Below, one piece after another: positions 13,034-36,871 of a stretch of 64,000 bases of DNA. The notes beneath the pieces were generated by a model. That model was given only the letters and a program-made list of their open reading frames with translations. It was not told the DNA's origin and searched no databases. Each line of letters starts with the position of its first letter. The first letter of the stretch is position 1. The DNA lies in contig NZ_QWKI01000019.1 of the NCBI RefSeq assembly GCF_009911645.1, positions 1-64,000 of the forward strand, in the 5' to 3' direction. The position numbers and the translations under genes are program-made. The stretch is from Pseudoflavonifractor sp. 60 (GTDB lineage Bacteria > Bacillota > Clostridia > Oscillospirales > Oscillospiraceae).

Positions 13034-13043
13034 GAGGGGGGCT

Positions 13044-22600: not shown

Positions 22601-24470
22601 TCATGGCCTTCCACACCTGCTGGATCTCGCTGATGCTCAGCTTGGTCTGGTTGAGCAGAATGAAGTGCTTGTCCAGGTCGCCGTCGTGGAAGAGGACATA
22701 GCACTCCGCCGTGATGGAGGGGTCCCGGCCGGCGCGGCCCGCCTCCTGGATGTAGTTCTCCAGGGAGTCGGAGATGTCGTAGTGGACCACCAGCCCCACA
22801 TCCTTCTTGTCGACCCCCATCCCGAAGGCGGAGGTGGCCACGATGATCCGCACCTCCCCCCGGATGAAGGCGTCCTGATTGGCCACCTTGTCCGCCGGGT
22901 CCATCTTCCCGTTGTAGGGCCGGGCGGGGAAGCCGTCGCTGGTCAGCTTCTCCGCCAGCTGCCGGGTCCGCCGGGTCCGGGAGACATAGACGATGGCGGG
23001 GCAGTCCCGCTGCTCGATGAGGGAGCGGAGCACGTTGTACTTGTCCCCCTCCGTCTCCTGGTGGAGCACCACATAGCGCAGATTTTCCCGGGAGGCGGAG
23101 GAGGTGAACAGCTCCAGCTCAACCCCCAGCTTGTCCTGGAAGTAATCCCGAATATCGCTGATGACCTTCTGCTTGGCGGTGGCGGTGAAGCAGGAGACGG
23201 GGATGGGAGCTGTCAGCCCCTTCTTGGCCTGCAATTCCCGGATGAAATCGCCGATGTACAGGTAATCAACCCGGAAATCCTGCCCCCAGGCGGAGAAGCA
23301 ATGGGCCTCGTCAATGACAAAGCGCACCACGTTCCGGGCCAGGAGGAGGGTCTCGATGGTACGGGAGCGCAGCTGCTCCGGGGAGATGTAAAAGACGGTG
23401 GCCAGCCCGTTGGCGACCCGCTCCAGGGCCTCGGCCCGCTCCACCGGGCTGAGCAGTCCGTTGACGGTGACGGCGTCCACCAGGCCGTGTTCGTTCAGGT
23501 TGTCCACCTGGTCCTTCATCAGGGACTGGAGGGGGGAGATGACCACCGTCAGCCCGTGCTCCGCCTGCCCCGCCATCAGGGCGGGCAGCTGGAAGGTGAC
23601 CGACTTCCCGCCGCCGGTGGGGAAGACCGCCAGCAGGGATTTCCCCTCCACCGCCGCCTGGGCCGCCCGCTCCTGGAGGGGCTCGCCGTCGTAGGAGCGG
23701 AACTGGTCGAAGCCGAAGAACTCCTTCAGCTTTCGGTGGAGCCCAAAGGCCTCCCGGCAGTAGGGACAGCCCTCCCGGCAGGGGCGGCCCCGCAGCCGCC
23801 GTATAACGTACTCGATCTTCGGGCGGGTCTTCACCAGCCACGGCGGGGTCACCGAGTGGCAGTCGCCGCACCCGATGAGGGCCAGGGCGTAAGCCAGCTC
23901 CATGGGCCAGCGGTCTATCAGCCCCCGCAGGTCCGCGTGCTGGCAGAGCTGGCCGGCAAACTCCCGCCGCACCGCCTCCTCCAGGTCGGGGCACTGGGGG
24001 CGGAAGCCCAGACAGGCAAAAAAGCCCTGAAACTCCTCAAAGGGGTTCAGCAGCCCGTAATAGAGCTCCTGCCGGGGGGCGGACAGCCGGGAGAAGGCGT
24101 TGACCTCGTCATAGAACAGCCTGCGGGCCTTCTCCGCATCGTTGAGGGGGTTGTTCAGCTCGTCCGACTGGAGCTTGTCGTCCTTCAGCAGGGCGTGGTA
24201 GGGGCGTTCCGGGAACAGCAGCGGCGACAGGTAGAGGGTATCCACCGCCTGGGCGGCCAGAGGCGTCCCCAGCAGCGGGCCCAGATAGCGCAGGTCGTGA
24301 TGTACAATGTTGTGTCCGCACAGAAAGGCGGCCCCGGCGATAAAGGCGGAAAACTCCCCCACGGAGGGGCCGTGAAACTGGCTCCCGTCCTCCTTCACCG
24401 CCCCCAAATCCAAAATCTTTTTGTCGGCTGTCCCGATCTCGCTGTCAATGAATACAATGGACTCCTCCAT
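19677..24470 (-). CDS. exonuclease - RecQ helicase - UvrD helicase fusion
   Basis: This 1597-residue protein joins three enzymes. Residues 1-110 form a DEDD-type 3'-5' exonuclease domain (FIDSE with D9/E11, CGHNIVHHDL, NNPLNDA). Residues of about 250-650 form a RecQ-family SF2 helicase (FPTGGGKS near 285, VIDEAHCFSAWG near 385, YIQEAGRAGRD). From about 1050 to the end lies a UvrD/Rep-type SF1 helicase (AAGPGSGKT near 1062, VIDEAQDMD, GDDDQNIYQFRG, STIHKSKGREF, YVAMTRARDN). Ordinary RecQ and UvrD are each 600-750 residues. DNA repair or attack on foreign DNA is plausible. It is transcribed away from the AAA+/Hsp70 operon. Confidence 0.9.
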   Translation of the reverse strand: MEESIVFIDSEIGTADKKILDLGAVKEDGSQFHGPSVGEFSAFIAGAAFLCGHNIVHHDLRYLGPLLGTPLAAQAVDTLYLSPLLFPERPYHALLKDDKLQSDELNNPLNDAEKARRLFYDEVNAFSRLSAPRQELYYGLLNPFEEFQGFFACLGFRPQCPDLEEAVRREFAGQLCQHADLRGLIDRWPMELAYALALIGCGDCHSVTPPWLVKTRPKIEYVIRRLRGRPCREGCPYCREAFGLHRKLKEFFGFDQFRSYDGEPLQERAAQAAVEGKSLLAVFPTGGGKSVTFQLPALMAGQAEHGLTVVISPLQSLMKDQVDNLNEHGLVDAVTVNGLLSPVERAEALERVANGLATVFYISPEQLRSRTIETLLLARNVVRFVIDEAHCFSAWGQDFRVDYLYIGDFIRELQAKKGLTAPIPVSCFTATAKQKVISDIRDYFQDKLGVELELFTSSASRENLRYVVLHQETEGDKYNVLRSLIEQRDCPAIVYVSRTRRTRQLAEKLTSDGFPARPYNGKMDPADKVANQDAFIRGEVRIIVATSAFGMGVDKKDVGLVVHYDISDSLENYIQEAGRAGRDPSITAECYVLFHDGDLDKHFILLNQTKLSISEIQQVWKAMKDLTRHRAVICCSPLEIARQAGWDDSGSDMETRVKTAIAALENAGYVKRGRNMPRVYANSIRARNMEEAARRIDQSSLFSGERKGKAKRIIQSLISSRSVANAGNDDAESRVDYLADILGLEKRDVIDCVNLMRQEGLLADSMDMSAYIYKQDTQNRSMQTLNRFGKLEQFLLDQIGGQECAFALKELNEAAMDAGVPHTSVRSIRTVLYYWTIKGCIAKQENGASQYVRITPLMEQDQLLEKYRRRMELCRFILEYLYAQLPPGGGAQSDQALVQFSLYGLHQEYSKLLTGETALADMEDALLYLSKTGAMRLEGGFLVLYNGMEVKRLILDNKIRYKQEDYRALNEYYKQKIQQIHIVGEYANLMVRDYSAALQFVQDYFQMDFKKFIAKYFKGERAAEISRNMTPERYRQLFGDLSETQASIIQDAGSKYIVAAAGPGSGKTRVLVHKLASLLTLEDVKHEQLLMVTFSRAAATEFKKRLMELIGNAANFVEIKTFHSYCFDLLGKIGSLDKVEDVVKNAAALIESGGVEPNRIAKTVLVIDEAQDMDENEFRLIRALMRRNEEMRVIAVGDDDQNIYQFRGSDSKYMGALIQDFGAVQYEMTENYRSRRNIVALANAFVHSIRERMKGEDIRAVRQETGAVRIVRHTGGYLEQPVVEEILQTHRGETACVLTNTNEEALRVLGLLTKHQIRARLIQSMDGFRLYDLAEVRFFLKILDRPQGPTPVISDEAWEEAKARLQTVYSSSACLENCLNLIADFERVNSYGKYRSDLEEFIRGSRYEDFYSDDRGTMFVSTIHKSKGREFDSVYLLLDRFPVERDEDRRKLYVAMTRARDNLFIHCNTEIFDALQVPDVERVQDSRTCSAPEEITLQLTHRDVVLDFFKDKKEKILRLRSGGPLGIEPGYLTASLEGRSFRAAKFSRACAGRLEELRRRGYRPVSASVRFVVAWKGREEERETAVLLADLHLSAGQ

Positions 24471-24623: not shown

Positions 24624-24652
24624 TTGAAAAGTGACCAGATAATTGATATGAT
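24624..24652 (+). promoter_or_regulatory. promoter of the AAA+/Hsp70/Sel1 operon
   Basis: TTGAAA is followed after 17 bases by TATGAT. The -10 box is embedded in a direct repeat ATGATACCCG (24648-24657 and 24661-24670) that could be a regulator site at the start of transcription. The first gene begins at 24710 behind AGAAGGAGAAG. Confidence 0.75.
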
Positions 24653-24709
24653 ACCCGTAATGATACCCGCAGGGAGGCAGGCACAAATCGACAGAAGGAG
24701 AAGTGAAGT

Positions 24710-27505
24710 ATGGATCGCACCTTTTCCAAGCCAAGCAAGGACCCCATGTCTCAGGACGGACGTACCGCACCGGCGGACGCCATCGTGTACCCCTTGGAGT
24801 CCCAGACCGTCCCGCCCGGGCTTTTTGACTCCGTCTGCGGCCTGGTCCACTACTTTGTGCGGCCCGAGGACGAGTTCGCGCTGAACTCCCTGGAACTGGT
24901 GGACGCCGACGCCTACCTCTACCGGCTCCTGCGGCGGGAGGGCTATGAGCGTGTCGCCTTTGTGGAGGTGGAGAGCACCAACTGCCAGATTTACGCCTAT
25001 GACCCGCCGTCCGGGGCCATTTTCCAGGCTGCCAGCGAAAAAAAGGGGCTGGATGACCTGACCCTCCGGCGGACCGCCCCCAAGGCGGCCTGCCCGACCC
25101 CGGCTGTTATAGGGAGGCGGATGGTCCAGAGCTTTTCCCAGGCGGAGCAGTTTCAGAAGAAGTTCGTCGCGGAGATCAACCACGCCCTGGAGGACGCACG
25201 CACCAAAACCGCCATTGTCATGCCCCTGTCCATCTTTGAGAAGGCGGGCTTCTTCTCGGACGCCATTATCAGCACTGTGAACCGGCTGGAGCGGATCAGC
25301 AACAGAAAAAACATTCTGGTGCTCACCATGCCCCGGCGGGACGACCTGCGCTGGTGCTTCGAGGGGAACCGAGCCCAGCTCCACGCCTGGGTCAACGCCA
25401 TTATGACCAATCCAGACCGCCTGAACATGGTCAAAGAGGCGCTGCACATCCTCAAATCCCTGGGGATCATCGTCCTGGCCGACGAGTACCAGGCGGACGA
25501 GATCGCCAATCTCCTGCTGCGCAAAAAGCACCTGGAGCAAAGCCCCCTTCTGGCCGCCGTTCCGGATACCGCCCTCTACCACCTGGCCGGCCAGCTGAGG
25601 GACCACTGCACCCAGGTCCAGGACCAGGGCTTTCAGCACATCCCCTACCTGGACCGGAGAGGGAACTGCATCCGGCAGCTGAACGCGCTGCTGGACCGGC
25701 CCCAGGTACAGGAGGAGCTGGCGGAGCGGGCCCGGAGACTCCCGGTGGGGACGACCCGCCTGGCCTATTCCCAGGATCTGGAGCCGCTGATGCTGGAGCG
25801 GGTCTGTCGTCTGGGCCTGCGGCGGTACGAGAGCAGCGGCACGCTGGACGAGATCATGGCGGAGCTTGACCGGCAGGTGGGTCCGGAGATGGAGCGGGTC
25901 AAACAGGAGATCCTTAACACCGTCCAGGCCATCTGTAGGAAGCGGGAGGACCCCGGCTACCTGAACATGGTCTTCTCCGGCCCTCCCGGCACGGGCAAGA
26001 CCACCATCGCCCGGCTTACCGCCCGTCTCCTCCACACCAAGCACATTCTGTCCTCCGACAAGACCGTGGAGGTATCCGCCCGAACGCTGGTCAGCTCTCA
26101 CATTGGAGAGACGGGGGAGAATATCCGGGCCGCCTTCGAGGAGGCGGAGGGGGGCGTTCTGTTTATCGACGAGTTCCATGGCTTTGACAACGCCCACCAG
26201 CACGGCAACCTGGCCCAGGAGGCAGTGGGGGCGCTGGTGGCCGGCATCAACGCCCACCGGACCTCCACCTGCGTCATCCTGGCGGGATATGAGGAGGGGG
26301 TCCGGCAGGTCCTCCGGGCCGACCCGGGGGCCTCCCGCCGGTTCCGGCAATACATCCACTTCCAGCCCTACTCCACCAATACGCTGCTGCTGATTTTGGA
26401 GTCCAATCTGAACCGGCAGGGGAGCGGCCTGGAGCCCGAGGCGGGCCGCCTGCTGCGCAGGGTCATAGAGTCGGACAAGGCGGTGCTGCGGGAGCAGCTG
26501 GGCAACGGGGGCTACGTGGAAAATCTGCTGAGCCGCCTGGAGGAGAGCCGTCTGGAACAGGACCCCTGCGTCTATACCCGGGAGGACGTTCTGCGCGCCT
26601 TCCCGGAGAAGAGCTGGGCCCTGAGCGGCGGCGAGGAGGCGGAGGAAATCCTGAACGAGTTCGACCGGCTGGCCGGGGCGCAGATGCAGCAGATCAAGGC
26701 GACAGTGAAGGAGACGGCGGACAGCTTCCTGGGCGAGATGGAGCGGGTCCAGCGGCTGAGGGAGCTGGGGAAGCAGGTATCCAGCGACGACCTGCCCTTT
26801 ATGAACATGAAGTTCCTCGGCCCCCCGGGGACGGGGAAGACCACGGTCGCCAAGCTGGTGGCCCGGTATTTCACCGCCAGAGGCATCCTCCACCACAGCC
26901 AGATGACCCAGCTTCAGGCCGTCAGCCTGGTGAGGGGAACGGTGGGCGGCACCGGAAAGGCCCTCCGGGAGGCGGCCCAAAATGCCAACGGCGGCGTCCT
27001 CATCATTGACGAGTTCCAGGCCCTGGCCAACTCCTTTACCGGCGGAAACACGGGGCTGGAGGCCATGCGCGCACTGGTGGCTACGGCCAACGAGTATCAG
27101 GGGTCCCTGTGCCTGATTGCGGCTGGCTATGAGGAGGAGGTGGAGGGTATCTTCCAGATGGACTCGGGGGCCAACCGCAGATTTCCCACTGTGGTCCACT
27201 TTGAACACTACGACCTCCCCACCCTGATGGCTATCTTTGACTCCCTCATCGGGGAGGAGACCCAGGGGATCGCGCTGCACCTGGAGCCCGATGCCAGAGC
27301 TCTGCTGGAGCGGGCCGTTCAGCGGGCCATGGACCGGGCGGGCCGGAGCTTTGGGAACGCGGGCGACATGAAGGATACCTTCCTGGCGGAGCTGCAAAAG
27401 AAGCGGCGGGTCCGGGACCCGGAGGATACCTCCTTCCGCAGGGCGGATGTTCTGGCGGCATTTCCGGGGCTGTTATCGGAAGAGAAGGAGAGAGTTTCAG
27501 AATGA
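24710..27505 (+). CDS. tandem CbxX/CfqX-type AAA+ ATPase
   Basis: This 931-residue protein has an N-terminal region (about 1-400) with no named domain that I recognise, then two AAA+ modules of the CbxX/SpoVK type. Module 1 has FSGPPGTGKTT near 425 and VLFIDEFHGFD; module 2 has FLGPPGTGKTT near 705 and VLIIDEFQALA. The family includes Rubisco activase CbbX and SpoVK, hexameric remodelling ATPases. It is the first gene of an eight-gene operon with coiled-coil proteins and an Hsp70-like ATPase, which suggests protein-complex remodelling. No Rubisco gene is in the window, so a CbbX role is unlikely. Confidence 0.88.
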   Translation: MDRTFSKPSKDPMSQDGRTAPADAIVYPLESQTVPPGLFDSVCGLVHYFVRPEDEFALNSLELVDADAYLYRLLRREGYERVAFVEVESTNCQIYAYDPPSGAIFQAASEKKGLDDLTLRRTAPKAACPTPAVIGRRMVQSFSQAEQFQKKFVAEINHALEDARTKTAIVMPLSIFEKAGFFSDAIISTVNRLERISNRKNILVLTMPRRDDLRWCFEGNRAQLHAWVNAIMTNPDRLNMVKEALHILKSLGIIVLADEYQADEIANLLLRKKHLEQSPLLAAVPDTALYHLAGQLRDHCTQVQDQGFQHIPYLDRRGNCIRQLNALLDRPQVQEELAERARRLPVGTTRLAYSQDLEPLMLERVCRLGLRRYESSGTLDEIMAELDRQVGPEMERVKQEILNTVQAICRKREDPGYLNMVFSGPPGTGKTTIARLTARLLHTKHILSSDKTVEVSARTLVSSHIGETGENIRAAFEEAEGGVLFIDEFHGFDNAHQHGNLAQEAVGALVAGINAHRTSTCVILAGYEEGVRQVLRADPGASRRFRQYIHFQPYSTNTLLLILESNLNRQGSGLEPEAGRLLRRVIESDKAVLREQLGNGGYVENLLSRLEESRLEQDPCVYTREDVLRAFPEKSWALSGGEEAEEILNEFDRLAGAQMQQIKATVKETADSFLGEMERVQRLRELGKQVSSDDLPFMNMKFLGPPGTGKTTVAKLVARYFTARGILHHSQMTQLQAVSLVRGTVGGTGKALREAAQNANGGVLIIDEFQALANSFTGGNTGLEAMRALVATANEYQGSLCLIAAGYEEEVEGIFQMDSGANRRFPTVVHFEHYDLPTLMAIFDSLIGEETQGIALHLEPDARALLERAVQRAMDRAGRSFGNAGDMKDTFLAELQKKRRVRDPEDTSFRRADVLAAFPGLLSEEKERVSE

Positions 27506-28866
27506 GCAGTTATTGGACCATCATCTCCTGCGCCGAGTGGGACCGGCTGAAGGAGAGCATTGCGACGGCGGACGCCTATGAGATCGAGAGCAGGGAGGAG
27601 ATCGCCCGCCTGCGGACCTTGGAGCAGGCGCGGCAGTGGGAGCTGGATCGACTCTGTCAGGAGACCCGGCAGCGCACCGAGGATTCCATCCACGCCCTGA
27701 CGGAGTCCTACCGCGCAGCGGCGGAGGGACTGGACCTCCAGGCCCGCGCCCGGCTGGCGGAGCAGGACCGCAGCTTTGCCGGACAGCTGGAGCAGCTGCG
27801 CGCCCAGGCGGCTCAGACGGGGACCAGGGCTTCCGCCCTCACCGAAGGGGCGGAGGCGGCGGCGCGGGAGTACAGCGCCGTACTGGAGCAGGCCCTGGCG
27901 GAGCACGCCAGAGGAGAGGAGCGGGCGAAGCGGACTCTGGAGGAGGTGGACCGGCTGCTGGAGCAGGTCCGCGCCCTCCACCCCTCCGCGTTCCTGCCGG
28001 CGGCGTACCCCTCTCTGGAGGCCATGCGGGCCTCCATCTCGGCCAATCTGGCGGCGGGGGATTTCCAGGCGGCCATGGTGGTGTCCCAGAACAGTATTTT
28101 AGAGGCCAGCCGGGCCCTGATCCAGCTGGTCCTCCTCCAGGAGCGGCACAGCCGCCGGAGCGAGCAGCTCCAGGAGCGGGGGGCGGCCCTCCAGACCAGG
28201 GCGGAGCGCCTCTCCGCCGGCGGCGGGACCCTCACGGTGGAGATGGACGGGGAGCCGGCCCAGCTCCCCTACTCCATCCAGTTCTGGTCCTATGGTGCCT
28301 TTGACGAGATCAACGGCCAGATCAGCGCCCTGAATCAGGAGCTGCGCCGGGAGGCGGACACGCCCACGGGTCTGGACCGGCTGGGGCGGCTGGAGGAGCA
28401 GCTGGCCCGGCTGGAGGAACGGCTGGAGGCCTGCGACCAGGAGGCCCGCCAGAGTCTGGCCGGGGCGGCGGCTGTGGAGAACACGGTGCAGCGGATCTAC
28501 AGCCGGCTGGATGAGCAGGGCTGGACGCTGGAGTCCTCTGGGCGGCAGGACGGGGACACCAGAAAGCCCTACTCCATGACCTACACCGACGGCGGGGGAA
28601 ACACGGTATCCATTGTGGTGGCCAGCGGAGAGCGGCCGGAGCGCCCCTCCTTCCTCTATGAGGCCTTCTCCCCCAGCGAGGGCATGGCGGCTATGGTCAA
28701 GGAGGACGTGGGCGCGGCGCTGAGAGAGGAGGGGCTGATCCCGAAACACACGGTGGAGCGGGATGACTGCGCCCTGAACGCCTCCCCCGACGTCTTCATT
28801 CGCCGCGCAGAGCAGGAGGCGGAGCAGCTCCGCCGCCGGGGCCGCCAGAGAGGGTGGGATCAATGA
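27502..28866 (+). CDS. coiled-coil protein of the AAA+/Hsp70 operon (paralogue 1)
   Basis: This 454-residue protein has no recognised family. Long helical, Glu/Arg/Gln-rich heptad-like stretches fill about residues 20-170 and 275-330. Between them is a segment with YPSLEAMRASISANLAAGDFQAAM, and near the end a beta-rich domain (SMTYTDGGGNTVSIVVASGE). The gene just downstream has the same architecture (coiled coil, a segment ending in ANGDYQAA, an IEFWS-like motif, C-terminal beta domain), so the two are diverged paralogues. Its ATG overlaps the AAA+ stop. A scaffold or client role for the AAA+ and Hsp70-like ATPases is inferred. Confidence 0.75.
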   Translation: MSSYWTIISCAEWDRLKESIATADAYEIESREEIARLRTLEQARQWELDRLCQETRQRTEDSIHALTESYRAAAEGLDLQARARLAEQDRSFAGQLEQLRAQAAQTGTRASALTEGAEAAAREYSAVLEQALAEHARGEERAKRTLEEVDRLLEQVRALHPSAFLPAAYPSLEAMRASISANLAAGDFQAAMVVSQNSILEASRALIQLVLLQERHSRRSEQLQERGAALQTRAERLSAGGGTLTVEMDGEPAQLPYSIQFWSYGAFDEINGQISALNQELRREADTPTGLDRLGRLEEQLARLEERLEACDQEARQSLAGAAAVENTVQRIYSRLDEQGWTLESSGRQDGDTRKPYSMTYTDGGGNTVSIVVASGERPERPSFLYEAFSPSEGMAAMVKEDVGAALREEGLIPKHTVERDDCALNASPDVFIRRAEQEAEQLRRRGRQRGWDQ

Positions 28867-30260
28867 GCGACGGGTATCTTCTGGTGGATGACGACTCTCT
28901 GAATGACCTGCGCTACCGCAGTCAGCTGGCGGAGCAGCGGCGATCTCGGGCGGAGCAGGACCTGCGGGAGGCCCACAGGCGGCTGGCGGAAACCGAGGCT
29001 GCCGCCAGCCGCCGCATCGACGGCGACCGGCAGCGGCTTCAGGCGGCCCTCCGGGCGGAGGAGGACAGGCTCTCCGGGGAGTTCAGCCGCCTCCAGTCCT
29101 CCCTGGACCAGGCCATTCAGCAGCAGAACAGGGAGCTGCACCGGCAGCTGGACGGGCTGCGCGGCGACTTGGCCCGGACGAACGCCAGGGTGGACAGCGC
29201 CGAGCAGCAGATCAAGGACCTCACAGACCGCTTTGACAGGGAGTTTCGCGCCATTGCAGACCGGTCCGCCGCCCAGCGGGAGCGGGCCCAGTGCTATCGG
29301 GACCAGCTGGACGGGCTGCTGCGGGGGATCGACGGCCTCCACCCGGAGCAGCTTGCGCCGGGGCAGGCGGAGCCCCTGCGTGACAGCAGGCGGTTCCTGG
29401 ACGCAGATCTTGCCAACGGGGACTATCAGGCGGCCATTGGCGTGGCCCAGAGCAATCTGCCGGCGGCCCTCCGCCTGCTGGGGGAGCTGGAACAGCGAAA
29501 CGGCGAGTATGACCGGCTGTCCGTCCAGGTCCGGGCCTCCATCCTCCAGGTCCGGCAGCGGATGCAGGAGCTGGAGGACCCAAAAGGCAACGCCGCAGTG
29601 GTCCAGTCCTCCGACCTGGAATTTTCCTATAACGGGGACATTGAGTTCTGGTCCGGCGGCCTGCTGGGCCAGCTGTGCGCCTCGTTTGACCGGGAACAGG
29701 GGCAGGTGGAGGAGTATTTGGCCGATATGGACCTGGAGAACCTGCGCATTGCGGTGGAGCGGATTCCCCAATACCTCCCCCGGCTGGACCTGTGCCGCCA
29801 GTTCGCCCGGGAGGAGTTTCACCTGTCCTGCGGCGTGCAGGAGCTGGCGCTGAACCTGCACGACGCGCTGACCGAGGACGGGAGCTGGGCGCTGACCCGG
29901 TCCGGCTTTCCGGAGGGCGACCCCCGCCGGTCCTACTGGGCGGTCTTCCAGGACCCCCTGGGACACACGGCGGCGGTGGTGGTCCAGCCAAACCGCGGCG
30001 GAGAGCCCCCGGCGGTCTTTTCCCTGGACGCCTGCGACGGGGACCAGGTTCGGAACGAGGGGCTGTGCGCCATCCTGCGGGACGGGGCGCTGGCCCGGCT
30101 GACCGACTGGGGCATCCCCCCGTCGGCCCTGGGCCAGGATAGGGGCTCCCGGCAGGGACAGGAGCCGGCCCAATTTATCTCCAGAGTGTGCGCAGACGGG
30201 GCCAAAAAGAGGCGGGCGCGTATCCAGGCGGTCCGCAGACTGATCGACTTGCAGACGTGA
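28863..30260 (+). CDS. coiled-coil protein of the AAA+/Hsp70 operon (paralogue 2)
   Basis: This 465-residue protein has an N-terminal coiled coil of about 150 residues rich in Arg, Glu, Gln and Ala. A helical segment with RFLDADLANGDYQAAIGVAQ, the motif YNGDIEFWSGG near 260, and a C-terminal mixed domain follow. It shares domain order and short motifs with the preceding gene. The start at 28863 is preferred because ATGA couples it to the upstream stop; the earlier in-frame candidate lacks a ribosome site. Family unknown; no catalytic motif seen. Confidence 0.75.
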   Translation: MSDGYLLVDDDSLNDLRYRSQLAEQRRSRAEQDLREAHRRLAETEAAASRRIDGDRQRLQAALRAEEDRLSGEFSRLQSSLDQAIQQQNRELHRQLDGLRGDLARTNARVDSAEQQIKDLTDRFDREFRAIADRSAAQRERAQCYRDQLDGLLRGIDGLHPEQLAPGQAEPLRDSRRFLDADLANGDYQAAIGVAQSNLPAALRLLGELEQRNGEYDRLSVQVRASILQVRQRMQELEDPKGNAAVVQSSDLEFSYNGDIEFWSGGLLGQLCASFDREQGQVEEYLADMDLENLRIAVERIPQYLPRLDLCRQFAREEFHLSCGVQELALNLHDALTEDGSWALTRSGFPEGDPRRSYWAVFQDPLGHTAAVVVQPNRGGEPPAVFSLDACDGDQVRNEGLCAILRDGALARLTDWGIPPSALGQDRGSRQGQEPAQFISRVCADGAKKRRARIQAVRRLIDLQT

Positions 30261-30273
30261 GGAGGAGAACAAC

Positions 30274-32025
30274 ATGAACAGCATCGGCTTGGATTTCGGC
30301 ACCACCTACTCGGTCATTGCGGCCCTCGGCCAGGACCTGACCCTGAACGCGGCCATGCTCAACGACGAGGACTGCTCCCCCTTCTACGACTCCCTGGTGG
30401 TGCGCAGGGCCGACGGGACCCTCTCCTTTGGCCGCCTGGCCCGCACGGAGATCTGGCAGCCGGGCTCCACCGTCTACAAGGGCTTTAAGCTCATGCTGGC
30501 CGAGGAGGACCCCCGCCTTCTCAAGGAACGGGGCTATGACAGCTCCACCACGCCGGAGGACGTGGTGCGGGGCTATCTGGCGGATCTGCTCAAGCGCTAT
30601 CAGAAGCGGTACGGGGAAATTGACCGGCTGGTCATCGGCGTCCCGGAGATATGGGTCGAGAACAGCGTGAAACAGCGGTGCTACGAGCGCCTCTATGACC
30701 TGGCGGCCGGGATGGGGCTGGCCCGGGAGGTCGTTCTGCTCAGCGAGCCCACCTGTGCCTGCGCCTATTATGTGGAGAAGTTTAAGGAGAAAAACGGCGG
30801 AGCCATCTTCCAGGGCAATGTGCTGATTGTGGACTACGGCGGCGGGACCCTGGACATCGCCCTGTGTCAGGTGGAAAACGAGAGGGGGACCCCCAAGGTG
30901 ACCGTACTGCACCGGTCGGGCGCCGGCGCTAACGAGGAGGGGGTCCTGGGCAAGGCGGGCTTCGCATTTATGGAGGAGATCGTGCGCCTGGCCCTGGCCG
31001 CAGGCGGGCTGTCTCCGGAGGAAATCAACTGCGAGGAGAACAAGGGGGCGCTGTACGAGTGCGTCTATACCCTGGAGGAGGTCTTTAAATCCCTGAACCT
31101 GACCGACAGCGGCAGGGACAAGCGCAAGCGGCTTCAGGAGATCCAGTTCAGCCTTGCCAGGGTCTACCAGGACCAAACGGAGTTTGCCCTTCTCAGCTTC
31201 CGCCGCCAGAAGGAGCTGGACGGCAGTCTGTACCAAATTTTAGAGCAGGTCACGGTAACCTACGGCATGGTGGCGCGGGCCTTTCAGGAAAAGATCGCGC
31301 CGGTGCTGAACAGCCGGCTGGACGACATGATCCGGTACATGAGGGAGCACCAAATTGCATACGGCCTGGGCGAGGACCACTTCAAGATCCAGCTGATTGG
31401 GGGCTTCTGCAACTTCTGCTGGGTCCAGTACGGGGTCAGAAAAAAGCTGGGCCTATCCGCTCTGGAGGACCGGCGCTACATTGGCGAGCTGTCCAACGCC
31501 GACGAACGGACCATGGCGGTGGCCTGCGGCGCGGCCCTGCTGGCCAATGAACAGACCCGATACGGCTTTGTGTCCCAGTACTCCATAGGACTGCCGGCCA
31601 AGTACCAGACGGCAGCCCGCACCCTCTGGGCCATCCGCCGGGATATGGAGCTGACCACCGGCCGCATCTACCTGTTCAAGTCTTCTGAACGTCACGCGGC
31701 CATCATCGGCGCAGACGGAATTGAGGAGCTGATTTACCAGGGGGATTGCGGTCCCGAGAGCGTCGCTCTGGACCCGCAGTACGCCGGCATGCTCCGCATG
31801 AACACCGAAAACATGAGCGGGTATATTATGGGCATATCCCAGGACCGCTCTAAAATCATCACCTTCCACTGGTGGGAGGTGACCCAGCTTGGGAAGATCG
31901 CCCGCCAGCTGGACCGGCTGGAGGAGCGCCTTGCCCAGGGAGAACAGGTGGAGGGGCTGGGCTCGGAGCACAGGGAGCGCCTGAACAAGGCCCTGCGGCT
32001 GGGGAACGCGGCCCTGGCCAGATAG
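30274..32025 (+). CDS. Hsp70-like actin-fold ATPase
   Basis: This 583-residue protein has the phosphate-1 motif GLDFGTTYSVIA at the N-terminus, phosphate-2 VDYGGGTLDIAL near 190 and an adenosine motif IQLIGGFCNF near 375, so the Hsp70 ATPase core looks intact. The last 180 residues differ from the DnaK substrate-binding domain and lack an EEVD-type tail, ending in a charged helix. It therefore looks like a specialised Hsp70-family ATPase rather than housekeeping DnaK. No J-domain or GrpE gene is nearby. In this operon it may cooperate with the CbxX-type AAA+ ATPase on the coiled-coil proteins. Confidence 0.85.
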   Translation: MNSIGLDFGTTYSVIAALGQDLTLNAAMLNDEDCSPFYDSLVVRRADGTLSFGRLARTEIWQPGSTVYKGFKLMLAEEDPRLLKERGYDSSTTPEDVVRGYLADLLKRYQKRYGEIDRLVIGVPEIWVENSVKQRCYERLYDLAAGMGLAREVVLLSEPTCACAYYVEKFKEKNGGAIFQGNVLIVDYGGGTLDIALCQVENERGTPKVTVLHRSGAGANEEGVLGKAGFAFMEEIVRLALAAGGLSPEEINCEENKGALYECVYTLEEVFKSLNLTDSGRDKRKRLQEIQFSLARVYQDQTEFALLSFRRQKELDGSLYQILEQVTVTYGMVARAFQEKIAPVLNSRLDDMIRYMREHQIAYGLGEDHFKIQLIGGFCNFCWVQYGVRKKLGLSALEDRRYIGELSNADERTMAVACGAALLANEQTRYGFVSQYSIGLPAKYQTAARTLWAIRRDMELTTGRIYLFKSSERHAAIIGADGIEELIYQGDCGPESVALDPQYAGMLRMNTENMSGYIMGISQDRSKIITFHWWEVTQLGKIARQLDRLEERLAQGEQVEGLGSEHRERLNKALRLGNAALAR

Positions 32026-32036
32026 GGGGCAGAAAA

Positions 32037-33074
32037 ATGGCATTTGAAAACATACGGGAGAACCTCGCTCTGCTGGAGACCCTGGACAGGCCGGTGCGCG
32101 CCGAGGAGCTGTACCAGCTGCTGTGCCTGGTCATGGATGAGATTTACGACGCCAGCGGCGTGCTGGACGCCTCTGAACTGGCCTGCGGGGACCCGGCGAA
32201 ATTGGCGCAGACGGTGCGCTATGTGCTGGGCGACGGGGCAAAGGCGGCTCAGGCCGGCATGGAGGGCATCCGGGAGCTGTCCGCCCAGAGTCAGCGGGAG
32301 TGCTATGACGCTGTGCGGGAGGCAAGGCAGGCGGGGGAGGCGCTGAACGAGGTACACCGTGCGCTGGAGGAGGCGGAGGCGCTTCGAGCCCGCCGGGAGG
32401 AGGCTTACCGCCGGCTGGCCCAGGAGAAGAGGGAGCTCCTGGAGGCCCAGACGGACTGCCGGAGGCTGGAGGGGGAGATCGCTCTGCTCAACGACGGGGT
32501 CCTGGAGGAGAAGCGGGCGGAGCAGTCACGGCTCCAGGCGGAGCTTGGGGCGCGGCGGGAGGCGGACTGCGCCCTTCAGCGGGAGCTGGACCGCCTCAAC
32601 GGGACCCTGGAGCACCTCCGCAAAGAGCTGAGCGCGGCCCAGGCGGAGCGGGAGGCGGCGGTATCCCGGCGCAGTCAGCTGGAACGCCGGCTGGCCAGCA
32701 CCCGGGAGGACATTGAGAGCGCGGAACAGCGGGCGGCGGAGATCAGCGCCCTTCTGGAGGGGCTGGGGGAGCGGGAGATCGCCCTCCTGGACCTGGCGGC
32801 CAGCTACACGGCGCTGTTCAACGCCCTGAACGCCGCCATGAACGAGCCCTTTCTCCGGGAGAACATCTTTCAGCTGTCGGGGAGCGGCAAACTGCTGGAT
32901 TGGACGGACAGCCCCGACCTGCGGGAGCTGGGGCGGCCCGTAAGCTCTGCGGAGGACCTGAAGGGGTGGATGGACTCCGTACAGGCCCGAATTGAGGCTC
33001 TCATCAGCGGGTATCAGACGGTACTGCGGCGGACGGCGGAGCTAAGCGGAACGCTGACGGCCCGCAGGGAGTGA
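32037..33074 (+). CDS. coiled-coil protein of the AAA+/Hsp70 operon
   Basis: This 345-residue protein is mostly one long coiled coil (about 85-250, rich in Arg/Glu/Leu with QLERRLASTREDIESAEQR). A short helical N-terminal region (about 1-85) and a compact C-terminal region precede and follow it. No family or catalytic motif was recognised. The start at 32037 lies 11 bases after the Hsp70-like gene with a G-rich ribosome site; the longer frame would run into that gene. It is probably a structural partner in the complex encoded by the operon. Confidence 0.75.
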   Translation: MAFENIRENLALLETLDRPVRAEELYQLLCLVMDEIYDASGVLDASELACGDPAKLAQTVRYVLGDGAKAAQAGMEGIRELSAQSQRECYDAVREARQAGEALNEVHRALEEAEALRARREEAYRRLAQEKRELLEAQTDCRRLEGEIALLNDGVLEEKRAEQSRLQAELGARREADCALQRELDRLNGTLEHLRKELSAAQAEREAAVSRRSQLERRLASTREDIESAEQRAAEISALLEGLGEREIALLDLAASYTALFNALNAAMNEPFLRENIFQLSGSGKLLDWTDSPDLRELGRPVSSAEDLKGWMDSVQARIEALISGYQTVLRRTAELSGTLTARRE

Positions 33075-33108
33075 AATACGGCTGTTTTGTGGAAGGAGAA
33101 GAGAGACC

Positions 33109-33627
33109 ATGGAAGAAAAAATTCCCTGTGCCTGCTGCGGGCATCCGGTCAGCGGGGAGAGCTGGCCCATGTGCGGCTACTGCGGATACGTCCATGTCGC
33201 CGTGGTGGGCAGCGCAACCCGGTATGACCGCCTGGCCCAGGAGCACCGGACGGAGGTAATCTCCAGGCTGACCGGCATCTCGGTACTGGCCTACCAGTAT
33301 GGCTGGAGCGAGGGAGAACAGCGCTACAAGCTCCTGGACAAGCGGGAGCTGGCGCTGGCCGACGGCCCCGCCTGTGACGGCGATGTCTTCTGGACCGGCC
33401 AGCGCTTCGGGCAAACTTCGCCCTTTTCCCTGGAGCTCAGCTACACCTATGACGGCAGCAGGCAGCGCGTCACGCGGAGCCTCCAGCCCCCGGCCTGCGC
33501 CGGCTATTGGGACCTGGGGCTGGAGATCAACTCCCACCTGGAGCTGGTGGTTCACCTGGGGGACAAACAGTCCTCCTCCAAAAGCCAGCCCATACCGTTT
33601 ATTCAGAAGGGGGGGGAAGCCGATTGA
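33109..33627 (+). CDS. zinc-ribbon protein of the AAA+/Hsp70 operon
   Basis: This 172-residue protein opens with a likely zinc-binding knuckle pair (PCACCGH with C7/C10 and MCGYCGY with C22/C25). A helical segment and a beta-rich C-terminal domain of about 80 residues follow (FSLELSYTYDG, LELVVHLGDK). The family was not recognised. Its TGA overlaps the TTG start of the next gene, which also begins with a zinc ribbon. A regulatory or adaptor role in the complex is a guess. Confidence 0.72.
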   Translation: MEEKIPCACCGHPVSGESWPMCGYCGYVHVAVVGSATRYDRLAQEHRTEVISRLTGISVLAYQYGWSEGEQRYKLLDKRELALADGPACDGDVFWTGQRFGQTSPFSLELSYTYDGSRQRVTRSLQPPACAGYWDLGLEINSHLELVVHLGDKQSSSKSQPIPFIQKGGEAD

Positions 33628-36251
33628 ACTGCGCAAAATGCGGCGGCGTGCTGCCCGCTGACGGCAAGTGCTCCTGCGGTTATCAGCTGAAAAAGGAGCG
33701 GACCTGGTTTCTCGCTCCCCTGACGGCGGAACAGCTGGCTCAGGCAAACCGGATGCTTCAGCCTCCGGCGCCAAATCCCGCTCCGCCCCCCGCGCCTCCC
33801 CGCAATGAGGACAGCGCCCCTCGGCGGCAGGACGCCAAAAAGGCCCCCCGGCTCAGCACCAGGGCCCTTGTCCTGGCCGCCCTGGCTGTGGTCCTCACTG
33901 GGGCGCTGCTGATATGGGGCGGAGCCTTCACCCAAATCATGGCCCGAACAGGGTCCCCGGGCGCACAAGTCCGGCTGGGGGACCGCTGCCGCGCCAGGGG
34001 CGACTACCAGCAGGCGGTGGAGTGGTACCGCATGGCCGCCGTTCAGGAGGACGGGGACGGACAGAACAAGCTGGGCGAGATGTACGAAAACGGGTATGGC
34101 CTGGAGCAGGACCACCAGGACGCCCTGAAGTGGTACCGGCTGTCTGCGGAACAGGGGAACGGCTGGGGCCAGAGCAATTTGGGGGCGATGTACTACCGGG
34201 GCCGGGGGACTCAGCAGAGCTATGAGGAGGCCCTCAAGTGGTTCCGCCTGTCTGCGGAGCAGGAGAACCCGGCGGGACAGAGCTGGCTTGGCATCATGTA
34301 CCAGAACGGCTATGGATTGGAGCAGGATTACCAGGAGGCCCTGAAGTGGTTCCAGCTGTCCGCAGACCAGGAGTACTCCAAGGGGCAGAATAGCCTGGGC
34401 GTCATGTACCAGCGGGGCCTCGGGGTCGAGCAGAATGATGAGATCGCCGTCAAGTGGTACCGTCTGGCCGCAAAGCAGGGGTATGAGCTGGGGCAACGCA
34501 ACCTGGCCTGGATGTATGAAAATGGCCGGGGAATCGAACAGGACTACGCCCAGGCGGCAAAATGGTACCGGCTGGCCGCAGAGCAGGGCAACGCCTTTGC
34601 GCAGAACCGCCTTGGTGCGCTGTACTGGAACGGGCAGGGTGTCACGCAGAGCGATGAGGACGCTGTACAGTGGTACCGGCTGGCCGCAGAGCAGGGCGAT
34701 GCTCAGGCCCAGTATATCCTGGGCTGGGCGTATGAAAACAGCCGGGGGCTTGAGCAGAATTTTGAGGAGGCGCTGAACTGGTACCGCCTGTCGGCCGCGC
34801 AGGGCAACGTCCAGGCCCAGGGCGCACTGGGGACTATGTACCACAACGGCAGAGGCGTGGTACAGGATAACCCGGAGGCGGTCGAGTGGTACCGGCTGGC
34901 CGCCGGGCAGGGCGACGCCTATGGACAGTGCAGTCTCGGTGTTATGTATTGTAATGGCTGGGGTGTGGAGCAAGACCTCAAACAGGCCGAAGCGTGGTTT
35001 CTCCTAGCCGCCGAACAGGAACACGCCAGTGCTCAATACAACCTTGGCGTGATGTACGAGAATGGCCGGGGCGTGGAGCAGAGCTATGAGGAGGCAGTCA
35101 AGTGGTACCATCTGGCTGCGGAGCAGGGTGATTCTGCCGCCCAGCGCAGCCTGGGACAGATGTACGAGAATGGCCGGGGCGTAGCACAAAGTGACGAGGA
35201 GGCGGTGAAGTGGTACCGCCTGGCCGCCGAGCAGGAAAATGCCCGGGCTCAATACAACCTTGGCATGATGTACGAGAATGGCCGGGGTGTGGAGCAGAGT
35301 TATGAGGAGGCAGTCAAGTGGTACCGTCTGGCTGCGGAGCAGGGTGATTCTGCCGCCCAATGCAACCTGGGATGGATGTACGCAAATGGCCGGGGCGTGG
35401 AGCAAGATGATGAGGAAGCGGTGAAGTGGTACCGCCTGGCCGCCGAGCAGGAAAATGCCCGAGGTCAGCGCAGTTTGGGCTGGATGTATGAAAATGGCCG
35501 GGGCGTGGAGCAAAATGATGAGGAAGCGGTGAAGTGGTACCGCCTGGCCGCAGAACAGGGCGACTCTGCCGCCCAATGCAGCCTTGGTGTGATGTACGCA
35601 AATGGCCGGGGTGTAACGCAAAATGACGAGGAAGCAATCCAGTGGTATCGTTTGGCCGCAGACCAGAGCTATTCTGACGCCCAGTGCAACCTGGGCTGGA
35701 TGTATGGGAATGGCCGGGGCGTGGAACAGAGCTATGAGGAGGCGGTGAAGTGGTACTGCCTGGCCGCAGAGCAGGGAAATATACGGGCTCAGCGCACCTT
35801 AGGGCGGATGTACGCAGATGGCCAGGCGATAGAGCAGGACTATGAGGAGGCAGTGAAATGGTACCGCCTGGCCGCAGAACAGGGCGACTCTAACGCCCAG
35901 TTCAATCTGGGGTGGCTGTATCATACTGGCTGGGGCGCAGAACAAAATTATGCAGAGGCAGTGAAATGGTACCGCCTGGCGGCGGAGCAGGAGAACGCCC
36001 AGGCTCAGGGTCTTTTGGGTACCATGTATGAGCAGGGTCAGGGTGTGGAGCAGAACGATAAATCAGCGGTGAAGTGGTACCGTCTGGCGGCGGAACAGGG
36101 CGACATCAACGGTCAGTACTATCTTGGCCGCATGTATGAGCGCGGGGCCGGCGTCCGGAAGAGCGCAAAAGAGGCGGTGAAGTGGTACCGTCTGGCCGCA
36201 GAGCAGGGCCACCCCAAGGCGCAGGAGGCTCTGGACCATCTGGAGTCATAG
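33624..36251 (+). CDS. membrane-anchored zinc-ribbon protein with about 20 Sel1 repeats
   Basis: With a TTG start overlapping the previous stop, this is an 875-residue protein. An N-terminal zinc ribbon (C3, C6, C16, C18) and a Pro-rich linker precede one transmembrane helix (about 81-99). Some 20 near-identical 36-residue Sel1-like repeats then run to the end (core WYRLAAEQGDxxAQxxLGxMY). Sel1 repeats form TPR-like solenoids for protein binding. The ribbon would be cytoplasmic and the solenoid outside if the helix is a type II anchor. The TTG start is supported by AGGGGGGGAAG and by the intact ribbon; the open frame further upstream lies inside the preceding gene. Confidence 0.85.
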   Translation: MNCAKCGGVLPADGKCSCGYQLKKERTWFLAPLTAEQLAQANRMLQPPAPNPAPPPAPPRNEDSAPRRQDAKKAPRLSTRALVLAALAVVLTGALLIWGGAFTQIMARTGSPGAQVRLGDRCRARGDYQQAVEWYRMAAVQEDGDGQNKLGEMYENGYGLEQDHQDALKWYRLSAEQGNGWGQSNLGAMYYRGRGTQQSYEEALKWFRLSAEQENPAGQSWLGIMYQNGYGLEQDYQEALKWFQLSADQEYSKGQNSLGVMYQRGLGVEQNDEIAVKWYRLAAKQGYELGQRNLAWMYENGRGIEQDYAQAAKWYRLAAEQGNAFAQNRLGALYWNGQGVTQSDEDAVQWYRLAAEQGDAQAQYILGWAYENSRGLEQNFEEALNWYRLSAAQGNVQAQGALGTMYHNGRGVVQDNPEAVEWYRLAAGQGDAYGQCSLGVMYCNGWGVEQDLKQAEAWFLLAAEQEHASAQYNLGVMYENGRGVEQSYEEAVKWYHLAAEQGDSAAQRSLGQMYENGRGVAQSDEEAVKWYRLAAEQENARAQYNLGMMYENGRGVEQSYEEAVKWYRLAAEQGDSAAQCNLGWMYANGRGVEQDDEEAVKWYRLAAEQENARGQRSLGWMYENGRGVEQNDEEAVKWYRLAAEQGDSAAQCSLGVMYANGRGVTQNDEEAIQWYRLAADQSYSDAQCNLGWMYGNGRGVEQSYEEAVKWYCLAAEQGNIRAQRTLGRMYADGQAIEQDYEEAVKWYRLAAEQGDSNAQFNLGWLYHTGWGAEQNYAEAVKWYRLAAEQENAQAQGLLGTMYEQGQGVEQNDKSAVKWYRLAAEQGDINGQYYLGRMYERGAGVRKSAKEAVKWYRLAAEQGHPKAQEALDHLES
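33959..36239 (+). repeat. 108-base tandem coding repeat (Sel1 array)
   Basis: About 20 copies of a 36-codon unit, marked by recurring AAGTGGTACCG words at 108-base intervals, make up most of the Sel1 protein gene. The central copies (about 35000-35640) are closest to identical, which suggests recent expansion or gene conversion. Confidence 0.9.
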
Positions 36252-36262
36252 GGGGAGGAGCT

Positions 36263-36871
36263 ATGGGAGAACGAATCCGCCTGCACAACATGGTGCTGCA
36301 CACAAGGGTCCTGGGCCCAGGGACCCGGGCTGCCATCTGGACCCAGGGCTGTGAGCGCCGCTGTCCCGGCTGCATGTCCCCCTCCTCCAGACCGCTGGAC
36401 GGGGGCTATTGGGTCGATGTGGACCTGATCATGAAGGAGCTGTCGGGCCTTGGGGATCTGGAAGGGGTCACCATCAGCGGAGGGGAGCCCTTTCTGCAAA
36501 TCAGACCGCTGCACTCGCTGCTGTGTGCGCTGCGGCGGGAGACAAAGCTGGGGATCATCCTCTACACCGGCTACACCATGGAGGAGCTGCGCAGTATGGA
36601 CCAGCCCCAGGTAGCGGACATTATCACCGGTCTGGCCGATCTCATCATTGACGGGCCCTACCTGGACCAGCTGAACGATGGGACCGCGCTGAAGGGCTCC
36701 GGGAATCAGGGCGTGAATTTTATCACAGACCGGTACCTTCCCTTCCAGGCGCTCTATCAGCAAAAGAAGCGGGAGATTGAAATCATTGCCGCAAAGGGGG
36801 AAATGTTTCTCATTGGAGTACCGGCAAAGGACACCCTGGAGGAGTGGCAGCGCATATTCCCGCCCTTTTAG
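36263..36871 (+). CDS. radical SAM activating-enzyme-like protein (NrdG-related)
   Basis: This 202-residue protein carries the radical SAM iron-sulphur motif GCERRCPGC (C30, C34, C37), the SAM-binding TISGGEPFLQ segment, and a YTGYTMEEL region. It has the size and layout of NrdG-type glycyl-radical activases and 4Fe-4S single-cluster proteins. No NrdD or other glycyl-radical enzyme is in the window. It ends the eight-gene AAA+/Hsp70 operon, starting 11 bases after the Sel1 gene behind GGGGGAGGAG. It may modify an operon protein instead; that is speculation from context. The longer open frame was rejected as it overlaps the Sel1 gene. Confidence 0.85.
   Translation: MGERIRLHNMVLHTRVLGPGTRAAIWTQGCERRCPGCMSPSSRPLDGGYWVDVDLIMKELSGLGDLEGVTISGGEPFLQIRPLHSLLCALRRETKLGIILYTGYTMEELRSMDQPQVADIITGLADLIIDGPYLDQLNDGTALKGSGNQGVNFITDRYLPFQALYQQKKREIEIIAAKGEMFLIGVPAKDTLEEWQRIFPPF

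Follow-up and report, generated by a model that had tools for sequence, protein, structure and literature searches.

A 64,000-nucleotide stretch of the Pseudoflavonifractor sp. 60 genome (here called the window) carries, within positions 24624-36871, eight tightly packed plus-strand genes, all with open reading frames, which raise the question of what an Hsp70-like ATPase, an AAA+ protein, coiled-coil and zinc-ribbon proteins, and a radical S-adenosylmethionine (SAM) enzyme might do together. We found that this operon is almost certainly a conserved functional unit. From the sequences of the operon and its relatives, we tentatively favor the reading that it may encode a two-part nucleoside triphosphatase (NTPase) machine for sensing and processing specific protein clients, with conflict against phages or plasmids as its likeliest role. 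The features of the operon, with the gene names used below, are as follows.

24624-24652, plus strand: sigma-70/A-type promoter, TTGAAA-17-TATGAT with TG ahead of the second hexamer, by consensus match only
24710-27505, plus strand: AAA, AAA+ protein of 931 amino acids with a Walker-less AAA-like N-terminal module and two SpoVK/CbxX-type AAA+ modules
24812-25738, plus strand: the N-terminal AAA-like module without Walker A (residues about 35-343 of AAA), kin to a stand-alone protein of type A operons (defined below)
27502-28866, plus strand: CC1, coiled-coil, adaptor-like protein of 454 amino acids
28468-28740, plus strand: KA1/BamC-like alpha+beta C-terminal domain of CC1 (residues about 323-413)
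28863-30260, plus strand: CC2, CC1 paralogue of 465 amino acids
30274-32025, plus strand: HSP, Hsp70-like ATPase of 583 amino acids
32037-33074, plus strand: CC3, helical/coiled-coil partner of HSP (family CCg), 345 amino acids
33109-33627, plus strand: ZR, zinc-ribbon protein of 172 amino acids with cysteines at 7, 9, 10, 22, and 25
33624-36251, plus strand: SEL, 875 amino acids from a TTG start, with an N-terminal zinc ribbon, one transmembrane segment, and 21 Sel1 stretches
36263-36871, plus strand: NrdG-like radical SAM protein of 202 amino acids with CxxxCxxC and GGEP motifs

An initial annotation, made from the sequence alone, had described eight plus-strand genes with gaps of at most 34 bases behind one good promoter. 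The open frames and the measured spacing (-4, -4, 13, 11, 34, -4, and 11 bases in gene order from AAA to radical SAM) bear this out, as does the near-consensus promoter; between 24400 and 37200, on both strands, there are 8 promoter-like sites, against a mean of 1.7 in shuffled sequence. Protein domains were assigned by Pfam, NCBIfam, and PADLOC scans, and the domain list of the annotation held up in Pfam and NCBIfam, with one addition, the Walker-less module as a third AAA-like module of AAA. The zinc-ribbon match among the eight proteins was weak (E = 0.05, below cut-off).

Conservation of the operon and its two gene sets

The first recurring gene set (set 1) consists of HSP, its partner CCg, and ZR. 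The HSP protein of the window exceeds the Pfam HSP70 cut-off (E = 2.5e-5; 23.2 versus 20.6 bits) and contains the nucleotide-binding motifs DFGTTYS and DYGGGTLD, and positions 4-525 of its family profile align to residues 7-494 of Hsc70 (1yuw). A scan of the GTDB species collection returned 169 HSP relatives, of which the best 80 were kept; an HSP gene call was obtained for 78 of the 80 loci, and the 47 with at least 4 kb on both sides form the well-flanked set counted here. Of the 47, 45 have CCg immediately after HSP, 40 have a ZR gene nearby (in 37 it is the second gene after HSP), and 45 have the Walker-less-type module, either free-standing or as a fusion with CbxX. The CC3 protein of the window matches the CCg family hidden Markov model (HMM) at E = 2e-15, the model having been built without it, and ZR matches its own family HMM, whose training set includes it, at E = 2e-34. 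Since the family HMMs came from clusters of the same loci, the membership counts are partly circular; gene order is not affected.

The second set (set 2) comprises the NrdG-like radical SAM protein, a coiled-coil protein whose end is KA1-like, and an AAA+ protein with the Walker-less N-terminal module. Two operon types can be distinguished. In type A, which accounts for most scan loci (Lachnospiraceae, Oscillospiraceae, Ruminococcus-type, and other Clostridia), the module is a separate protein and the AAA+ protein is Cdc48/p97-like (E = 6e-96; nearby in 40 of the 47 well-flanked loci). In type B, that of the window, a CbxX-type motor is fused to the module and accompanied by one or two CC1-like proteins and the radical SAM gene. 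A CbxX protein was found in 4 of the 47 well-flanked loci, and type B loci lie partly on short contigs. Outside the window, type B occurs at loci L060, L090, and L147 (Clostridia), in the genome of L050/L166, and in "Ca. Brocadia" (L095) and Thiomargarita (L164/L125), and a mobilizable plasmid of Calothrix (L173/L178) carries it too; in the window and in each of these cases (L173 for the plasmid), set 2 is found with HSP. The same set recurs across Bacillota, Planctomycetota, Pseudomonadota, and Cyanobacteriota. The annotation had proposed scoring the conservation of gene neighbors; because they are strongly conserved, both in the set 1 counts of 45 and 40 among 47 and for set 2 across phyla, the possibility that homologues are scattered without shared neighbors fails.

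Within the same family, 18 of 199 genomes besides the window's have an HSP match, of which five are long relatives (about 30% identity over 440 to 530 residues) and 13 are short (about 110 to 210 residues); no long relative was found in three sampled congeners. These congeners have genomes of 2.4 to 2.9 Mb; the source assembly is 4.38 Mb in 394 contigs (96.7% complete, 2.05% contamination) and may be a mixed bin. In the HSP tree, which includes L025 twice, the window groups with L060, L090, and L089 (Shimodaira-Hasegawa-like approximate likelihood ratio test support of 98), with positions unsure because several branches, the window's included, are long. The gene caller was home-made, and strands seem wrongly picked on the GC-rich loci L025, L034, and L170; the L025 calls were repaired, and L170 was rechecked with tblastn.

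Relatives of the radical SAM gene also adjoin AAA+ and coiled-coil genes where no Hsp70 was detected, at L148-L150 and on plasmids of Polaromonas, Moellerella, Leisingera, Aristaeella, and Geminocystis (Leisingera by annotation only). Eight of 43 plasmid records had their contexts read, with an AAA+ gene nearby in seven and such a coiled-coil protein in six. No HSP, CC1, or AAA partner was seen for the Kovacikia plasmid relative, and a Paenibacillus relative has a different AAA gene nearby, with DUF1257 and DUF2997. On the Polaromonas, Moellerella, and Leisingera plasmids (L180, L181, and L185), genes for AAA-domain, PIN-domain, and coiled-coil hypothetical proteins, an AAA ATPase, and a 4Fe-4S/radical SAM protein stand together in what looks like an undescribed mobile module.

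Several observations concern other Hsp70 loci and the type A operons. Six plasmid records gave HSP-level matches, and two contexts were read, one of them that of the Calothrix plasmid. On the conjugative Paenarthrobacter plasmid pA (L172), an Hsp70-family gene is flanked by two hypothetical genes amid DUF262, GIY-YIG, helicase, and DNA methyltransferase genes, a restriction-type setting for another Hsp70. At L030, L031, L032, and L033, a separate Hsp70-like family has long partner proteins whose beginnings resemble a J domain (by eye), and in L103 set 1 has recombined in another way, HSP, CCg, and ZR lying amid kinase-, PP2C-, FHA-, and vWA-like genes (by eye). Type A operons of gut and rumen Clostridia (most of L048-L127) also hold families F5 and F6, and some have zinc-ribbon proteins of the RCC1, Sel1, or DUF285 kind; family 8, a HerA-type gene, is present in 16 of 85 clustered loci, among them some type A operons. 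An ESCRT-like machine was considered for these relatives, as Vps4B aligned to the AAA profile over most of its length and EAP30/Vps36 matched a 215-amino-acid protein weakly (E = 0.053). In sequence searches, no MIT domain was found in 20 N termini and no Snf7 among the families shown for 25 F6 proteins, and the idea was dropped.

The radical SAM enzyme, the motor, and the adaptor-like and repeat proteins

Judged by sequence comparison, the radical SAM gene is a member of the conserved set. Its product matches Fer4_12 (E = 7.6e-24) and Radical_SAM (E = 3.3e-8) in Pfam, keeps the CERRCPGC (CxxxCxxC) and GGEP motifs intact, and shares 55%, 60%, and 41% identity with its relatives in L060, L090, and L095, respectively. 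A search model made from these four sequences matched 17 of 391 genomes of the class at 1e-35, with the window at 1e-106, G478, which carries a type B operon, at 1.3e-54, and the next at 1.7e-39. All six genomes reached through HSP (via L060, L090, L095, L125, L116, and L050) have a match at E = 2.9e-62 or better, three of the six having supplied the model; in Beggiatoa (L116), the gene is on a separate 4.5-kb contig. Among 343 Planctomycetota genomes, three matched at 1e-40, in four places; two of these are the Brocadia loci, and at the other two (20 kb and 3.9 kb at hand), no HSP, CC1, or AAA partner was found. The window protein scores below the NrdG equivalog cut-off (85.2 versus 126.1 bits), and there is no NrdD among the eight proteins. 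Because a separate pair, an NrdG-like gene beside a gene for a 708-amino-acid NrdD-like protein (assigned by eye and length), sits elsewhere in the same genome (contig C341, L153), the operon enzyme is a distinct paralogue and not the housekeeping NrdG. A search of phage records with the radical SAM protein matched 170; the 20 listed, at 30 to 35% identity, either lack an annotation or are labeled hypothetical or anaerobic ribonucleotide reductase small subunit, and we read these matches as ordinary NrdG.

The two SpoVK/CbxX-type modules of the AAA protein each have a Walker A motif (residues 424 and 704) as well as an IDE Walker B (identified by eye in the first module and by pattern in the second). 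Among NCBIfam models, SpoVK (E = 4.7e-73; 245.4 versus a cut-off of 422.95 bits), EccA of the type VII secretion system (T7SS) (E = 1.2e-62; 212.3 versus 466.65 bits), and CbbX (182.5 versus 459.25 bits) all score below their cut-offs. The N-terminal module matches its family HMM, trained without the window AAA protein, at E = 2e-20, and the N termini of six AAA proteins near radical SAM relatives also match it (hhalign probability 88, pairwise E = 3.3e-6). A suspected homology of the module to Ycf46 is not claimed, as hhalign gave no match to two Ycf46-like proteins (probability 0.2%). No other genome among 200 of the same family has a full-length match to AAA; the best same-family match is a Sel1-CbxX protein that covers the two motor modules. 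In that family, a tandem CbxX protein at L152 carries eight fused Sel1 stretches and unites two kinds of part that are separate in the window operon.

CC1 and CC2 had been called paralogous, which their 24% identity confirms. By profile comparison, the KA1-like C terminus of CC1 is linked to eight coiled-coil proteins beside radical SAM relatives (hhalign probability 95, pairwise E = 2.9e-8). Coiled-coil proteins near the radical SAM gene start with MSG in L095, L164, L167, L173, L179, L182, L148, and L149, which could hint at an N-terminal modification site; those of the window, L060, L147, L150, L180, and L181 start otherwise, with MSS, MSD, MSI, MSR, or MSK.

SEL has paired N-terminal cysteines (3, 6, 16, and 18) and the only clear transmembrane segment among the eight proteins (hydropathy of 2.45 at residue 81). 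Ten SEL-cluster proteins from HSP loci, some on the other strand, have Sel1 (three) or DUF285/LRR repeats (seven), profile family 10 being a mixture of both, and several have N-terminal CxxC pairs. Elsewhere, an RCC1 protein with zinc-ribbon-like cysteines lies ahead of HSP (L028), and a MORN protein with a zinc ribbon follows the radical SAM gene (L166). By its sequence features, SEL fits a recurring slot of zinc-ribbon/repeat proteins near HSP genes. The initial annotation had inferred an envelope-linked, ATP-driven protein-remodeling or signaling machine. Remodeling is still the natural reading of an Hsp70 with an AAA+ protein, but the envelope link is weak: SEL has its transmembrane segment, whereas nine of ten scanned zinc-ribbon/repeat proteins near HSP genes have none by hydropathy.

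Changing parts, genomic setting, and possible function

Around the conserved genes, other parts change from locus to locus. The AAA+ protein of L060 ends in Trypsin_2 (E = 1.9e-21); L090 and L147 have the His-Asp-Ser motifs too, L050 has a matching C-terminal piece, and L089 has Trypsin_2 without the motor, its catalytic serine motif not being found. In L167 the AAA+ protein is fused to NB-ARC and TPR. On the Calothrix plasmid, a gene between HSP and radical SAM encodes a protein with TPR (by PADLOC) and an NB-ARC-like part (by eye). L095 adds WD40 with TIR, DO-GTPase2, and GAP1-N2 with GAP1-M, and its zinc-ribbon protein is FN3-like by eye, with no Pfam FN3 match at 0.01. L060 has a HerA-type ATPase, as do L090 and L166 if judged solely by length and start; in L060 and L090, the radical SAM gene is followed by two genes that look sigma-factor-like and zinc-binding-like by eye.

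A complete Shango anti-phage system, SngABC, lies 9.4 kb upstream of the operon at 10281-15275 by PADLOC models (SngA, E = 5.2e-61; SngB, 2.2e-194; SngC, 1.1e-275), which is suggestive of a defense island but not proof of one. Directly upstream of the operon, on the minus strand (19677-24470), a gene encodes a 1,597-amino-acid protein whose separate stretches match DpdF-type and GajB/UvrD-type helicases; from these matches it looks like a RecQ-UvrD fusion. The annotation had considered stress and defense roles both possible, and the changing parts and nearby Shango tilt the choice toward defense.

In the machine that we tentatively favor, HSP, steered by the zinc-ribbon and coiled-coil proteins, would bind a client and hand it to the AAA+ ring, which would unfold it. 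The Walker-less module would be a docking platform, fused to the motor here and separate in type A, and CC1 and CC2 would act as adaptors. Output would come from the locus's own module, a trypsin-like protease or NB-ARC in relatives and perhaps SEL here, and the radical SAM enzyme would probably modify a protein of the machine, a coiled-coil adaptor being the first candidate.

A number of results weigh against a client-processing conflict machine. Past residue 300, the HSP profile scores 7 bits against the best DnaK chain, which is weak support for a substrate-binding part, and no HSP match was found in 50,697 phage records at E = 1e-5. PADLOC gave AAA-level, coiled-coil, and repeat matches for the eight proteins and no system match. 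The window operon lacks the protease seen in its Clostridia relatives, and the interval between Shango and the operon holds signaling-type genes (by eye) and the helicase-type gene on the other strand. The two sets also part company: no ZR was detected beside HSP in L095 by the family model, the second Brocadia copy (L167) has set 2 with no HSP within its 20 kb, and no CCg or ZR was detected on the Calothrix plasmid that carries set 2. Many of the tests in this analysis rest on metagenome-assembled genomes.

That the genes are together by chance, or are loosely linked with no joint function, is scarcely credible; type B loci are few and partly on short contigs, but the same set is found in four phyla, and the conservation of neighbors already contradicts this reading. 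A dedicated proteostasis machine with no conflict role, a bichaperone like DnaK with ClpB that serves anaerobes in protein or redox stress, is a serious alternative that we consider rather unlikely. Hsp70 with an AAA+ protein is the classic disaggregation pair, and in type A operons this HSP family is accompanied by a Cdc48/p97-like AAA+ protein; protease fusions would suit quality control, and the sigma-factor-like and zinc-binding-like genes of L060 and L090 also count in favor. Patchy presence, changing effector-like parts, and a copy on a mobilizable plasmid would nonetheless be unusual for housekeeping, and neither DnaJ nor GrpE is among the Pfam families shown for the eight proteins; CC3, which is helical, gave no GrpE match in Pfam at E values up to 1.

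Less probable still is a maturation machine, in which the radical SAM enzyme would activate or cross-link a target (by glycyl radical or thioether) that Hsp70 and AAA+ proteins load or remodel, as CbbX does for Rubisco. The radical SAM enzyme is well conserved, with its motifs intact, and its relatives adjoin coiled-coil and AAA+ genes in loci with no detected Hsp70. Set against this, the families shown for the eight proteins include no glycyl-radical domain, and gene calling gave nothing further of at least 40 amino acids between them. An envelope, secretion, or sporulation machine built around a SpoVK/EccA-like AAA+ protein and a membrane Sel1 protein is very improbable: the SpoVK and EccA matches, the SEL transmembrane segment, and the HerA-type ATPases point that way, but neither model reaches its cut-off, the eight proteins include no WXG100 or other T7SS component, and the transmembrane segment is not constant in the zinc-ribbon/repeat proteins.

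If the conflict reading is taken further, the operon might belong to an unnamed, cross-phylum immune/conflict class, a broader proposal that we regard as doubtful. Its three-gene core would be a radical SAM enzyme activating or modifying a KA1-tipped coiled-coil adaptor, which would couple to the module-bearing AAA+ motor, with radical chemistry as the arming step of a defense driven by chaperones. Recombining sensor and output sets would include Hsp70/CC3/zinc ribbon, motor-fused trypsin or NB-ARC, TIR-WD40, GTPases with GAP1, kinase/FHA/phosphatase, and plasmid PIN plus AAA-domain genes. The conflict reading itself, if right, would add a chaperone-powered, radical-SAM-containing branch to bacterial conflict systems, tie Hsp70/AAA+ remodeling directly to immunity-type outputs (protease, NB-ARC, and TIR), and give a role to the NrdG-like "4Fe-4S single cluster" proteins next to plasmid AAA ATPases. 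To our knowledge, the link between chaperones and immunity outputs, familiar from eukaryotes, has rarely been tested in bacteria. The conserved set offers mutable handles in the two Walker A motifs, the radical SAM cysteines, and the Hsp70 nucleotide site.

Comparison with known systems

The annotation knew of no named system with this gene set, and our results agree: no characterized system matched the operon in PADLOC, NCBIfam, or Pfam scans of the eight proteins, and full-text searches among open-licence papers turned up no description of the set (subscription papers lie outside that scope). We found no published name for the gene set, and type A operons are likewise without a published description that we have met. 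The DnaK-ClpB bichaperone combines an Hsp70 ATPase, a tandem AAA+ ATPase, and helical cofactors, and the window has counterparts of all three. It differs in that its AAA+ protein is of CbxX/SpoVK type, DnaJ and GrpE matches are lacking, and a radical SAM enzyme and KA1-tipped coiled coils are added. IetAS, whose protease part is subtilisin-like, resembles the several relatives in which an AAA+ protein is coupled to a serine protease, and the PADLOC IetA model matches AAA at the AAA level (E = 3.1e-24). The window operon, however, lacks a protease, matches the SpoVK model far better, and has Hsp70, coiled-coil, and radical SAM partners in addition.

The CoCoNuTs of type III-A have SpoVK and Hsp70-like parts (eLife 2024, 13:RP94800, PMC11090510). 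Shared with the window operon are coiled coils, an Hsp70-like nucleotide-binding domain (with a substrate-binding domain that is putative in the window), a tandem SpoVK ATPase or a HerA ATPase, zinc ribbons, and a predicted defense role. In contrast to CoCoNuTs, the window operon has no McrB GTPase or McrC among the families shown for the eight proteins, and whereas the CoCoNuT tandem ATPase is described there as having Walker motifs only in its C-terminal domain, both AAA+ modules of the window have a Walker A motif.

Kaur et al. (2020, eLife 9:e52696, PMC7159879) described NTP-dependent conflict systems, including a GAP1-N2 type with HSP70 and GrpE, that are likewise among the closest known. 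As the main text of that paper presents them, these systems share with ours an Hsp70 with a neighboring helical partner, zinc ribbons, membrane-linked parts, and swappable effectors (TIR and trypsin), and set 1 may overlap their HSP70/GrpE theme. Among the relatives, DO-GTPase2 and GAP1-N2 adjoin the gene set in L095 and L167. GAP1-N2 (PF20013) matched in only two of 7 genomes, G590 (Brocadia) and G591 (Thiomargarita), and is absent from the window genome and from four Bacillota relatives (G478, G588, G589, and G593); no GTPase family, and so no DO-GTPase, is shown for the eight proteins of the window operon. Since GAP1-N2 is missing from the window genome, the operon is not a GAP1-N2 member as defined. 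The main text of Kaur et al. never mentions CbxX and mentions radical SAM once, as an effector of a MoxR-vWA system. Part-swapping around a constant NTPase core marks the systems described there; we lean toward a conflict role, and the window operon is probably a conflict system of their broad kind, outside GAP1-N2.

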